From Tsukamurella paurometabola (GTDB taxonomy: Bacteria; Actinomycetota; Actinomycetes; Mycobacteriales; Mycobacteriaceae): a stretch of DNA of 64,000 bases. Positions 54,877-62,012 of the stretch are shown here, piece by piece (position 1 is the first letter of the stretch; each line of letters starts with the position of its first letter). The notes under the pieces are model-generated. The model was not told where the DNA came from, searched no databases, and saw nothing but the letters and a program-made list of their open reading frames with translations. The stretch is taken from assembly GCF_900631615.1 (NCBI RefSeq), contig NZ_LR131273.1:2574850-2638849 (forward strand), written 5' to 3'. A program made the translations under genes and the position numbers.

Positions 54877-55908
54877 TCAGCCGAAGAACGCCGCGGCGTC
54901 GTCGTAGCGCTCGCGCGGGACGCGCTTGAGTTGCTGGACGGCGTCGGCGAGGGGGACGAGGCTGATCTGGGTGCCGCGGAGGGAGACCATCTGTCCGGTC
55001 TTGCCTGCGTGGGCGGCGTCGGCGGCGTTGACGCCGTAGCGGGTGGCGAGGACGCGGTCGGCGGGGGTCGGGGTTCCACCGCGCTGGACGTGCCCGAGGA
55101 CCGTCGTGCGGACCTCCTTGTTGATCCGCTTCTCGATCTCCACGCCGAGTTGGTGGGCGACGCCGGTGAAGCGTTCGTGGCCGAACTCGTCGGTGCCCCC
55201 GACGCGCAGTTCCATCGTGCCCTCGGCGGGTTTGGCGCCCTCCGCGACGACGACGATGAAGCTGGAGTGACCGCGCTGGAAGCGGCGCTTGATCATGGTG
55301 CACAGGTCGTCGACGTCGAACGGGACCTCGGGGATGAGGACGGCGTGGGCGCCGGACGCGAGGCCGGAGTTGAGTGCGATCCAGCCGGCGTGGCGGCCCA
55401 TCACCTCGACGATCATGACGCGTTGGTGGGATTCGGCGGTTGAGTGGAGCCGGTCGATCGCGTCGGTCGCGATGGTGAGCGCGGTGTCGAAGCCGAACGT
55501 GACGTCGGTGCAGTCGATGTCGTTGTCGATGGTCTTCGGCACGCCGATGACCGGGACGCCCTCGTCGGCGAGCCAGGAGGCGGCGGTCAGGGTGCCCTCG
55601 CCGCCGATGGGGATGAGGACGTCGATGCCGTTGTCGTCGAGGGTCTGCTTGATCCGGTCCAGGCCCGCCCGCAGCACGTCGGGGTGGGTGCGGGCGGTGC
55701 CCAGCATCGTGCCGCCCTTGGTGAGGAGCCGGTCGTTGCGATCGTCGTTGGACAACTGCACGCGCCGGTCCTCGAGGAGGCCGCGCCATCCGTCCTGGAA
55801 TCCGACGACCGCCGATCCGTAGCGGGAATCGCTCGTGCGGACCACCGCCCGGATCACCGCGTTCAGGCCCGGGCAGTCGCCACCGCCGGTCAACACTCCG
55901 ATCCGCAC
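54877..55908 (-). CDS. pfkA: 6-phosphofructokinase
   Basis: Commits fructose-6-phosphate to glycolysis. The 343-residue product has [18 protein letters not shown] at the N-terminus, the nucleotide loop [10 protein letters not shown] (Gly rather than Asp at the position that distinguishes PPi-dependent enzymes), the catalytic [20 protein letters not shown], and [12 protein letters not shown]. This is the actinobacterial type. The start is GTG 55906-55908 with AAAGGGA 6 nt upstream; the ATG at 56004 falls inside an operator palindrome. Third codon positions are almost all C, unlike the neighbouring pyk. Divergent from the SorC-type regulator, and probably controlled by it. Confidence 0.95.
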
Positions 55909-55962: not shown

Positions 55963-56014
55963 ATCACACGCCGATCGGAACGTTTCGACAACGGTCGCGC
56001 CCATATGGGCGCGA
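55963..56014 (-). promoter_or_regulatory. pfkA promoter with 20-bp palindromic operator
   Basis: A perfect palindrome TCGCGCCCAT/ATGGGCGCGA (55995-56014). Reading toward pfkA, the core GCCCATATGGGC (56010-55999) is followed by 7 nt, -35 TTGTCG (55991-55986), a 17-nt spacer and -10 TGTGAT (55968-55963). The same core, spacing and -35 occur upstream of pyk. The palindrome also overlaps the -35 position of the divergent regulator gene. Confidence 0.8.
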
Positions 56015-56032
56015 ATCGATGCGGTCCGGCTC

Positions 56033-56038
56033 TACGCT
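56033..56038 (+). promoter_or_regulatory. Putative -10 of the sorC-type regulator gene
   Basis: TACGCT would start transcription near 56045, about 40 nt before the GTG. Its -35 position (about 56010-56015) lies inside the palindrome, suggesting autorepression. Confidence 0.45.
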
Positions 56039-56084
56039 GAGGGGGGCGCGGTCGCCCGACCGCGGCGTCCCGAGGAGGTGTCGA

Positions 56085-57047
56085 GTGGGTTCCATGGGGC
56101 CGGCCGAAGTGGTCCGGGCAGCAGCCATCGCGCGGAGGTTCTACTTCGACGGGAAGTCGAAGATGGAGATCGGCGCCGAGTACGGGCTGTCGCGCTACAA
56201 GGTGGCCAGGATTCTGGACGCGTGCCTCGAATCGGGCCTGGTCCGCATCGAGATCAACACCGATTCGGCGATCGACGCCGACCTGTCCGAGCGGCTGCGC
56301 CGCGCCTACGGGCTGCGGCGCGCGCTGGTCGCGACGGGCTCGTTCACCGATTTCGACGGCCTGCGCCACGGGTTGGGCCGCGTCGCCGCCGACCTGCTCA
56401 GTGAGGTCGTGACCGAGACCGACGTGCTGGGCGTCGGCTGGGGACGAACCCTCGACGCGATGGCGCAGCACGTCCGCGACCTGCCGCCGTGCACGATCGT
56501 CCAGATGTCCGGCGTCGTCGGCGATGTGCAGGCCAGCTCCGTCGACCTGGTGCGCCAGCTGACATCGGTCTCGCACGGGCCGCAGTACCCGATCTACGCC
56601 CCGCTGATCATGTCGGACCAGCGGATGAAGGCCGCGCTCGCCCGGCAGCCGAACATCGCCGCCGCGATGGCGTTGTGGCAGCGGATCACCGTGGCCGTCG
56701 TGGCCGTCGGGAGTCTGGACCTCACGGGTTCGCAGGTCTACGCCATGCTGTCGGATCAGGGCCGGGCGGAACTGGATTCACTCAACGTCGCCGCCGAGCT
56801 GTGCGCCATCCAGTTCGACGCCGCAGGGCGCCCCGTGCGCACCACCTACAGCGGCCGCACACTCGCCATCTCGTACCGCGAACTGAGCGCCGTCGACGAG
56901 GTCATCGCCATCGCCGGCGGTCACCAGAAGGTGGAGGCCATCCGCGCCAGCCTGATCAGCGGCGTGGTCACGTCCTTGGTGACCGACCGCGAGACCGCCA
57001 TCTCGCTACTGCGCGTCGCACCGGCGGAGTCCGCCGATCACGCATAG
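56085..57047 (+). CDS. SorC/CggR-family sugar-responsive regulator, predicted to control pfkA and pyk
   Basis: A 320-residue protein. The N-terminal HTH is VVRAAAIARRFYFDGKSKMEIGAEYGLSRYKVARILDACLESGLVRIEI. The rest is the SorC-type sugar-phosphate-binding domain (GLGRVAADLLSEVVTETDVLGVGWGRTLDAMAQHV; TYSGRTLAISYRELSAVDEVIAIAGGHQKVEAIRASLISGVVTSLVTD). The start is taken as GTG 56085, 6 nt after AGGAGG; ATG 56094 is too far from it. Identical palindromes lie in the divergent region with pfkA and one base after the stop, before pyk. By analogy with CggR the effector could be a glycolytic phosphosugar (inference). Confidence 0.85.
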   Translation: MGSMGPAEVVRAAAIARRFYFDGKSKMEIGAEYGLSRYKVARILDACLESGLVRIEINTDSAIDADLSERLRRAYGLRRALVATGSFTDFDGLRHGLGRVAADLLSEVVTETDVLGVGWGRTLDAMAQHVRDLPPCTIVQMSGVVGDVQASSVDLVRQLTSVSHGPQYPIYAPLIMSDQRMKAALARQPNIAAAMALWQRITVAVVAVGSLDLTGSQVYAMLSDQGRAELDSLNVAAELCAIQFDAAGRPVRTTYSGRTLAISYRELSAVDEVIAIAGGHQKVEAIRASLISGVVTSLVTDRETAISLLRVAPAESADHA

Positions 57048-57048
57048 T

Positions 57049-57096
57049 GCCCATATGGGCGTGACGGTTGTCACTCCGATCGCGGGTGCATACGTT
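57049..57096 (+). promoter_or_regulatory. pyk promoter with CCCATATGGG operator
   Basis: Palindrome GCCCATATGGGC (57049-57060), 7 nt, -35 TTGTCA (57068-57073), 17-nt spacer, -10 TACGTT (57091-57096), 7 nt, then the GTG start (leaderless). The block from palindrome to -35 matches the pfkA promoter at 22 of 25 positions. Confidence 0.82.
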
Positions 57097-57103
57097 CCGT
57101 CCT

Positions 57104-58534
57104 GTGACTCGTCGAACCAAGATCGTCTGCACCCTGGGCCCTGCTGTCGGAACGGATGAGAAGGTGCTCGCTCTCGTTGAGGAGGGCATGGATGTTGCGC
57201 GCCTGAATTTCAGCCATGGCGAACACGCCGACCATGCGGTGAACTACAACCGCGTGCGTGCCGCGTCGGATAGGACCGGCCGGGCTGTCGGGATCCTCGC
57301 TGATCTGCAGGGCCCGAAGATCCGGCTGGGTCGGTTCGCCGGCGACGGTCGGACCGTGTGGGAGACGGGTGAGACGGTGCGGATCACCGTCGAGGATGTG
57401 GTCGGTACGCATGATCGGGTGTCGACCACGTACAAGGAGTTGGCGCAGGACGCGCGTCCGGGTGATCGGTTGTTGGTCGATGACGGGAAGGTCGGCCTGA
57501 AGGTCGTCTCTGTCGACGGCAATGATGTGGTGTGTGAGGTCACTGAGGGTGGCCCCGTTTCCAACAACAAGGGTGTGTCCCTGCCGGGGATGAACGTGTC
57601 GGTGCCGGCGCTCAGTGAGAAGGACATCGAGGATCTGGAGTTCGCGCTCGGGTTGGGTGTGGATTTCATTGCGCTGTCGTTCGTGCGGTCGCCGGCGGAT
57701 ATCGAGCGGGTGCATGCGGTGATGGACCGGGTGGGTCGGCGGATTCCGGTGATCGCGAAGTTGGAGAAGCCGGAGGCGATCGAGAATCTGGAGGCGGTGA
57801 TTCTGGCGTTCGATGCGGTGATGGTCGCGCGTGGTGATCTGGGCGTGGAGTTGCCGCTGGAGGAGGTGCCGCTGGTGCAGAAGCGGGCGATTCAGATCGC
57901 GCGGGAGAACGCCAAGCCGGTGATCGTGGCGACGCAGATGTTGGAGTCGATGATCGAGAACAGCCGTCCGACGCGGGCGGAGGCCTCGGATGTGGCGAAT
58001 GCGGTGCTCGACGGTGCGGACGCGGTGATGCTCTCGGGTGAGGTGTCGGTGGGCAAGTACCCGATCGAGACGGTGCGCACGATGGGCAAGATCGTGCAGG
58101 CCGTCGAGAACGTCGACGACGGAGCGCCGTCCATTCCTCCCCTCAATCACGTGCCGCGCACCAGGCCGGGCGTCTTGTCGTACGCGGCCCGCGATATCGG
58201 GGAGCGGCTCAACGCCAAGGCCCTCGTCGCGTTCACCCAGTCCGGTGACACGGTGCGCCGGCTGGCGCGCCTGCACACGCGGCTGCCGCTGCTGGCGTTC
58301 ACGCCGCTGCCCGAGGTCCGCAGCCAGCTCGCCCTGTCCTGGGGTACGGAGACCTTCCTCGTCGACGGTGCCGACAGCACCGACGCGATGATCCGGCAGG
58401 TCGACCACTCGCTCGAGGGCATCGGTGACTATTCCCGCGGGGATCAGGTCGTGATCGTCGCCGGCGCGCCCCCCGGGACCGTCGGTTCCACCAACCTCGT
58501 CCACGTGCACCGCATCGGCGAAGACGACCACTGA
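57104..58534 (+). CDS. pyk: Pyruvate kinase
   Basis: Makes pyruvate and ATP from phosphoenolpyruvate. The 476-residue enzyme has the N-terminal RRTKIVCTLGPA, ARLNFSHG, the active-site MVARGDLGVELPLEEV with IPVIAKLEKPEAI (catalytic Lys), ATQMLESMIENSRPTRAEASDVANAVLDGADAVMLSGE and the C-terminal Asn/allosteric domain. The start is GTG 57104 (VTRRTK), 7 nt from the -10. Codons in the middle (about 57160-58090) favour G/T third bases (GGT, GAT, TTG, GTG), while the 3' 440 bases return to the local C/G pattern. Confidence 0.96.
   Translation: MTRRTKIVCTLGPAVGTDEKVLALVEEGMDVARLNFSHGEHADHAVNYNRVRAASDRTGRAVGILADLQGPKIRLGRFAGDGRTVWETGETVRITVEDVVGTHDRVSTTYKELAQDARPGDRLLVDDGKVGLKVVSVDGNDVVCEVTEGGPVSNNKGVSLPGMNVSVPALSEKDIEDLEFALGLGVDFIALSFVRSPADIERVHAVMDRVGRRIPVIAKLEKPEAIENLEAVILAFDAVMVARGDLGVELPLEEVPLVQKRAIQIARENAKPVIVATQMLESMIENSRPTRAEASDVANAVLDGADAVMLSGEVSVGKYPIETVRTMGKIVQAVENVDDGAPSIPPLNHVPRTRPGVLSYAARDIGERLNAKALVAFTQSGDTVRRLARLHTRLPLLAFTPLPEVRSQLALSWGTETFLVDGADSTDAMIRQVDHSLEGIGDYSRGDQVVIVAGAPPGTVGSTNLVHVHRIGEDDH

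Positions 58535-58598: not shown

Positions 58599-62012
<3,414 letters not shown>

Follow-up and report, generated by a model that had tools for sequence, protein, structure and literature searches.

We report a predicted SorC-family regulon in Tsukamurella paurometabola, recognized in a stretch of 64,000 nucleotides (contig NZ_LR131273.1, positions 2,574,850 to 2,638,849, forward strand; hereafter the window). The regulator gene, sorC, lies between two exact copies of the palindrome GCCCATATGGGC: one is common to sorC and the divergent gene pfkA2, the other precedes the run pyk2-fba2-gap2-eno, here called the sorC operon. Another exact copy stands before ppc, elsewhere in the chromosome. Whatever the sign of the control, it is highly probable from these sequences that the three promoters form one SorC regulon, restricted to the genus. 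The SorC/DeoR-type protein encoded between the palindromes would bind GCCCATATGGGC, would respond to a phosphorylated sugar, as its family suggests, and would control pfkA2, pyk2-fba2-gap2-eno and ppc. Through the pfkA2/sorC site it would also act on its own gene. The genes and predicted operators of the window are as follows.

54877..55908, minus strand: pfkA2, second copy of 6-phosphofructokinase (above the TIGR02483 cutoff; paralogue at C1:2956784, 96% amino-acid identity)
55999..56010: palindrome GCCCATATGGGC, predicted SorC operator common to the divergent pfkA2 and sorC promoters (exact in 7/7 genomes with sorC)
56085..57047, plus strand: sorC, regulator of the SorC family, SorC/DeoR subfamily (start inferred: conserved GTG/ATG after GGAGG)
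57049..57060: palindrome GCCCATATGGGC, predicted SorC operator before pyk2-fba2-gap2-eno, 1 nt past the sorC stop (exact in 7/7)
57104..58534, plus strand: pyk2, second copy of pyruvate kinase, GTG start (above the NF004886 and TIGR01064 cutoffs; paralogue at C1:3501007, 97% amino-acid identity)
58599..59627, plus strand: fba2, class II fructose-bisphosphate aldolase (above the NF006628 cutoff)
59710..60729, plus strand: gap2, second copy of type I glyceraldehyde-3-phosphate dehydrogenase (above the TIGR01534 cutoff; paralogue at C1:3447126, 92% amino-acid identity)
60726..62012, plus strand: eno, enolase, last in the run, next gene convergent (from frame and sequence; 97-98% matches in the runs of loci L120 and L164)

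Distribution of the palindrome

The initial annotation of the window had drawn attention to the palindrome on the pfkA and pyk sides, and its description is accurate. Both copies are exact (55999-56010 and 57049-57060); each is followed by 7 nt, TTGTC(G/A), a 17-nt spacer and a -10-like hexamer, and from palindrome to -35 the two blocks are identical at 22 of 25 positions (12 + 5 + 5). This identity is not kept in other species, where the sequence of the 7-nt gap differs on the pfkA2 side; its length is 7 at 14/14 sites.

Within the window, four places match the palindrome with up to two mismatches, no more than chance (20/100 shuffles reach at least four). Statistics on the window being uninformative, we turned to the whole genome. 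The chromosome of 4.70 Mb holds three exact copies of GCCCATATGGGC and none of the reversed pattern. The third copy, absent from the initial annotation, lies directly before ppc and after tpi and secG-like frames, all named from recognition of translated frames rather than by family search. The only copy with one mismatch (C1:1445474) is inside a reading frame and was rejected as a chance match. With up to two mismatches the genome has 129 matching places against 173 for the reversed pattern, so that there is no sign of a wider regulon. With only three chromosomal sites, the predicted regulon would be small enough for complete testing.

Of 16 Tsukamurella genomes, seven yielded a sorC orthologue (95-96% identical), among them G000, the genome of the window. 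In all seven, the two copies of the palindrome bracket the SorC-family gene and both are exact; the conservation that the annotation had asked for wherever sorC is present is thus observed. The pattern GCYCATATGRGC occurs 23 times in the 16 genomes: 14 copies flank sorC, 7 stand before ppc and 2 fall within reading frames. In the seven sorC genomes, all 19 copies are in pfkA2, sorC-operon or ppc promoters. The exact copies of G013 and G007, inside reading frames of genomes without sorC, were rejected as targets. Outside the genus, five of 85 genomes hold seven exact palindromes in all.

The annotated SorC-family regulon of pfkA and pyk is thus conserved in 7/7 sorC genomes, but its pfkA and pyk are second copies, and the other copies are without the site: upstream of 14 other pfkA and 15 other pyk genes of the genus, the best match has at least three mismatches to the palindrome (loci and fragments without a start codon were dropped). 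The paralogue search in the window's own genome covered pfkA, pyk and gap. In 5/7 genomes sorC is followed by pyk; in G014 the next gene is fba and in G015 it is gap, and these two have likewise kept promoter and palindrome. There pyk is gone (L120 and L025 in G014, L024 in G015); G014 retains what appear to be its first codons. A reading centred on pyk was rejected, since the site outlives the gene in two species. Control of “both irreversible steps” of glycolysis, the theme first proposed, does not describe the regulon either: the operon is pyk-fba-gap-eno, its pyk is dispensed with in 2/7 genomes, and ppc is also a predicted target.

A ppc match was found in 13/16 genomes. Before the gene, the palindrome is exact in G000, G002 and G014 and has one mismatch in G003, G004, G005 and G010; upstream of ppc in G006, G007, G008, G009, G012 and G013 it occurs only with at least three mismatches. 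With 0-1 mismatch, the site is present in 5/5 genomes with sorC against 2/8 where sorC was not found (p 0.02, kinship ignored). These two are G002 and G003, in which pfkA lies beside deoR-galT-galK and is interrupted by a contig end. Such an end is what near-identical repeats would produce if they broke the assembly, and sorC may be missing from these two assemblies only. If both are counted as carriers, the site is found in 7/7 against 0/6 (p 0.0006, kinship ignored). The ppc promoter of G000 (L003:1501-1566) has additional CCCATA/GGGCATA repeats between palindrome and start.

The regulator and its operator

The sorC product contains the C-terminal sugar-binding effector domain of the SorC family (Pfam PF04198, 1.7e-57, residues 63-307). 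Among solved structures, Bacillus subtilis DeoR (8r7y) aligns over residues 10-307 and LsrR from residue 5 or 10 to the end, whereas CggR chains match the effector domain only (profile positions 66-308); the winged helix-turn-helix (HTH) of about 100 residues is not seen here. In PMC11229326, the SorC/DeoR subfamily is defined by a short HTH of 50-60 residues rather than by the winged HTH of ~100 residues. The full-length alignment to DeoR and LsrR places a short HTH in our regulator, which is therefore SorC/DeoR-like. It had been annotated as SorC/CggR-type, an identity that we rejected on domain coverage. With the NCBIfam DeoR equivalog NF053881 it scores 146.8 bits, below the cutoff of 420. 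The arginine pair of its recognition helix, SR...R, lines up with SRPTVSR of DeoR and does not vary among 28/28 sequences; to judge from the spacing, it would be equivalent to the base-contacting R34 and R39 of DeoR.

The search for the regulator in named genomes returned 28 loci, 5 from Tsukamurella and 23 from other actinobacteria (39-49% identical), several of these from closely related species. None of the 23 has pfkA, pyk, fba, gap, eno or ppc in the DNA examined, up to 7 kb on each side. Within 200 bp upstream of the homologue, 13/23 carry GCYCANNTGRGC, with 17 copies in 4.6 kb versus 11 in 327 kb elsewhere. The hexamer CATATG occurs within 150 bp upstream of 12/23 homologues, at 68 times the rate elsewhere, and comes first of the 64 palindromic hexamers (the next is found at 6 loci). 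Because GCYCANNTGRGC precedes homologues that have no glycolysis neighbours, GCCCATATGGGC is very probably SorC's own operator.

These relatives, in Arthrobacter, Nocardia, Amycolatopsis, Streptomyces, Streptomonospora and Hoyosella, resemble the Tsukamurella system in having an operator-like GCTCANNTGAGC near the gene. Their operators read GCTCA versus GCCCA in Tsukamurella, and their recognition helix SRF[KR][VI][AG]R versus SRYKVAR: tyrosine is found in 6/6 Tsukamurella rows, phenylalanine in 22/22 others. Unlike Tsukamurella sorC, they adjoin ABC uptake genes in 5/6 tested loci, some of which also have a gene for a zinc dehydrogenase or an FGGY kinase; in Hoyosella (L130), the single neighbour tested is an AidB-like protein. 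With relatives next to genes for the uptake of sugars and polyols, the Tsukamurella regulator appears to have been rewired towards the second glycolysis set and ppc. In one Streptomyces locus, an anti-sigma-like HATPase_c_2 gene (L131:6461-6943) directly precedes the sorC homologue, with GCTCATATGAGC upstream at -618.

Promoter layout and the sign of regulation

The promoter elements recognized in the window are listed below.

55963..55991, minus strand: putative pfkA2 core promoter, TTGTCG (55991-55986), 17-nt spacer, TGTGAT (55968-55963); layout kept in 7/7
55975..55988: 14-nt near-palindrome TCGGAACGTTTCGA within the pfkA2 promoter, a candidate binding site for a LacI-family repressor whose gene lies elsewhere
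56033..56038, plus strand: putative sorC -10, TACGCT, 22 nt after the palindrome, with no recognisable -35; same distance in 7/7
57061..57074: GTGACGGTTGTCAC, GTGA-N6-TCAC inverted repeat over the pyk2 -35; GTGA[CT]GGTTGTCAC in 7/7
57068..57096, plus strand: putative pyk2 core promoter, TTGTCA (57068-57073), 17-nt spacer, TACGTT (57091-57096); layout kept in 7/7

Palindrome and putative -10 are separated by 30 nt in 7/7 genomes at pfkA2 and in 7/7 at the sorC operon. At ppc, the gap is 30 nt in 4/7, 31 in one (G010) and 40 in two (G000 and G002), the last being about one helical turn beyond 30. Over all 21 target promoters, 18 have a gap of 30 nt, one of 31 and two of 40. The palindrome would thus be centred at about -49.5 at the target promoters, and at about -59.5 at ppc of two species. 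At sorC itself the gap is 22 nt in 7/7, with a -10 hexamer that varies among the genomes (TACGCT, TAGTGT, TACCCT), and the centre would lie near -41.5. Such a position would suit autorepression or a class II-like control; self-repression is plausible. The putative -10 of ppc (NATACT), which is without a good -35, is 7 nt from the ATG in 7/7; that of pyk2 in the window, TACGTT, is 7 nt before the GTG start. Since these hexamers are so close to the start codon, pyk2 and ppc are probably leaderless.

Two promoters contain further candidate sites. Over the spacer of the pfkA2 promoter, TCGAAACGTTCCGA is found in 7/7 genomes; G000 has two copies of it with at most one mismatch. The second copy (TCGRAACGTTYCGA, C1:336985-336998, L176:1501-1514) lies between divergent genes for a LacI-family regulator (Pfam) and an MFS transporter, where a site is present in 16/16 genomes of the genus. 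Of 24 copies in the genus, 16 are at lacI/MFS, 7 at pfkA2 and 1 elsewhere in G012. Because the 14-nt site otherwise sits at the lacI/MFS promoter, that LacI protein probably acts on pfkA2 as well. As a second SorC half-site, TCGAAACGTTCCGA is disfavoured: its centre is ~23 bp from that of the palindrome (~20 in relatives), and the 14-mer recurs at lacI/MFS. The GTGA-N6-TCAC repeat at pyk2 (57061-57074) resembles CRP/GlxR sites in its consensus and is a candidate for such a site.

A site directly upstream of -35 had been annotated as activator-like. Such a position is no proof of activation, because B. subtilis DeoR, of the same family, represses from a palindrome upstream of -35. According to PMC11229326, DeoR occupies an operator from -60 to -21 in which the palindrome is placed upstream of -35 and is followed downstream by a direct repeat; members of the SorC family contact DNA as dimers of dimers, and their role is often repression. 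In Tsukamurella, each promoter has a single palindrome and no second CATATG half-site is conserved, so that the two-half operator of DeoR and CggR is not found; several relatives do have a second half-site, ~20 bp away. We give activation, in which the protein would touch RNA polymerase from a site immediately before -35, about an even chance, slightly ahead of repression, because the second half-site is gone in Tsukamurella while the spacing is kept. We also count in its favour the 10-nt shift and poor -35 at ppc, and the separate repressor-like site within the pfkA2 promoter.

A DeoR-like repressor of the same regulon is a somewhat less probable alternative. The palindrome at about -50 would anchor a tetramer whose second dimer weakly covers -35/-10; a sugar phosphate would release it, and the genes would be on when sugar is plentiful. 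The extent of the DeoR operator and the frequent repression within the family fit such a protein, as do three Arthrobacter loci (L125, L127, L144) and Hoyosella L130, in which a palindrome-30/31-CATACT arrangement faces the divergent gene and TTGCACATATG, a second half-site, lies at -35. At Tsukamurella pfkA2 and pyk2, TTG follows 8-10 nt after the palindrome, as in Hoyosella and Nocardia. The missing CATATG-like half-site argues against repression here, together with the ppc site of G000 and G002, 10 nt further out, and the near-constant spacing, which an upstream repressor would not need. Repression could also be exerted by DNA looping, with one tetramer bridging the two palindromes ~1,050 bp apart, sorC within the loop and both promoters shut. 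We consider this improbable: binding as dimers of dimers would allow it and the palindromes are 1048-1051 bp apart in 7/7 genomes, but that distance is set by how long sorC is, no partner lies near the ppc site, and the chromosome contains just three exact sites.

Several observations weigh against an activated regulon of three promoters. DeoR, which among solved structures matches best over the full length, is a repressor whose palindrome precedes -35, and the Amycolatopsis and Streptomyces sites coincide with the apparent -10 or follow it, as expected of repressor sites. Given the DeoR layout, these sites and the Arthrobacter and Hoyosella half-sites, the ancestral mode looks repressive. The putative -10 hexamers were picked by eye and the transcription starts derive from them by inference; genomes and homologue loci are related, and their counts are not independent events. 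No ppc match was obtained at E 1e-50 in G001, G011 and G015, genomes listed as 100% complete. Ten of the 23 homologue loci have no exact GCYCANNTGRGC within 200 bp, although five of these have an exact copy 616-854 bp upstream, four a form with one mismatch and one a form with two. Finally, G002 and G003 carry the ppc site in assemblies without sorC, as would be expected if another regulator read the palindrome and its position around sorC were incidental. We hold that explanation to be very improbable: the same pattern recurs before SorC homologues from other families, among different neighbouring genes, and of the eight ppc-bearing genomes in which sorC was not found, six lack the ppc site and the other two show contig ends at the place expected for sorC.

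Duplicated glycolysis genes and known systems

Within a genome, pfkA1 and pfkA2 (together with the pyk copies, loci L069-L112 of the genus) are 99.5, 98.7 and 98.6% identical at the nucleotide level in G005, G010 and G014, and 92.7, 92.1 and 88.6% in G000, G004 and G001; the mean between species is ~84%. In the tree, copies from the same genome group together in 3/6 genomes for pfkA and in 3/3 for pyk. Gene conversion is the simplest reading of this likeness, although repeated duplication may also have produced near-identical copies. The likeness of the window copies to the others begins at the start codon, so the promoters of the two copies are separate. As pfkA2, pyk2 and gap2 duplicate existing enzymes and the pfkA1 and pyk1 promoters are without the site, the most likely role of the second set is to control expression and not to add a new reaction.

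In G014, a second pyk copy (L112/L117, C1:1027573-1028990) matches as two overlapping pieces in different frames and is probably frameshifted. G008, without a sorC orthologue, has an extra pyk-pfkA tandem of its own (L090/L111, C1:141113-143576), 85% and 79% identical and devoid of the palindrome: it is a separate duplication of glycolysis genes.

A bolder reading, somewhat less likely than not, is that within the genus a local repressor of a sugar or polyol locus became an activator of a whole duplicated glycolysis set and ppc. The operator would have changed from GCTCAT to GCCCAT along with phenylalanine to tyrosine in the helix, while gene conversion would keep the pfkA copies alike in some species and their promoters apart. 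If so, one enzyme would be under two control systems. Comparison with the relatives makes the rewiring of a local regulator concretely testable, with one operator base per half-site and one helix residue. The species that kept or lost pyk, and the ppc site shifted by about one helical turn, amount to a natural experiment on activation versus repression. To our knowledge, bacteria rarely keep two nearly identical sets of glycolysis genes; here the second set, with ppc, is apparently under one dedicated regulator.

In the open-access literature searched, we found no description of such a system. Cra/FruR of enterobacteria likewise responds to phosphosugars and controls a number of genes of central carbon metabolism, pfkA and pykF among them, but it is an unrelated protein of the LacI family acting on single-copy genes. 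B. subtilis CggR is closer, as a SorC-family protein that controls a glycolytic operon including its own gene; it differs in its DNA-binding domain and in an operator that lies beyond the transcription start, at +32 to +77 (PMC11229326). The effector in the CggR subfamily is fructose-1,6-bisphosphate or DHAP. In Tsukamurella the palindrome instead precedes the putative -10 of the target genes by 30-40 nt. DeoR of B. subtilis (8r7y) is the solved structure most similar over the full length, narrowly before LsrR; it shares a short HTH, a palindrome upstream of -35 and a gene that adjoins its target operon. DeoR differs in serving deoxyribonucleoside use and in being a repressor with a two-part operator, against one palindrome per promoter and glycolysis and ppc targets here. 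SorC regulators and glycolytic regulons are thus known; a DeoR-type member dedicated to a duplicated glycolysis set and ppc, with one palindrome per promoter, appears to be new.

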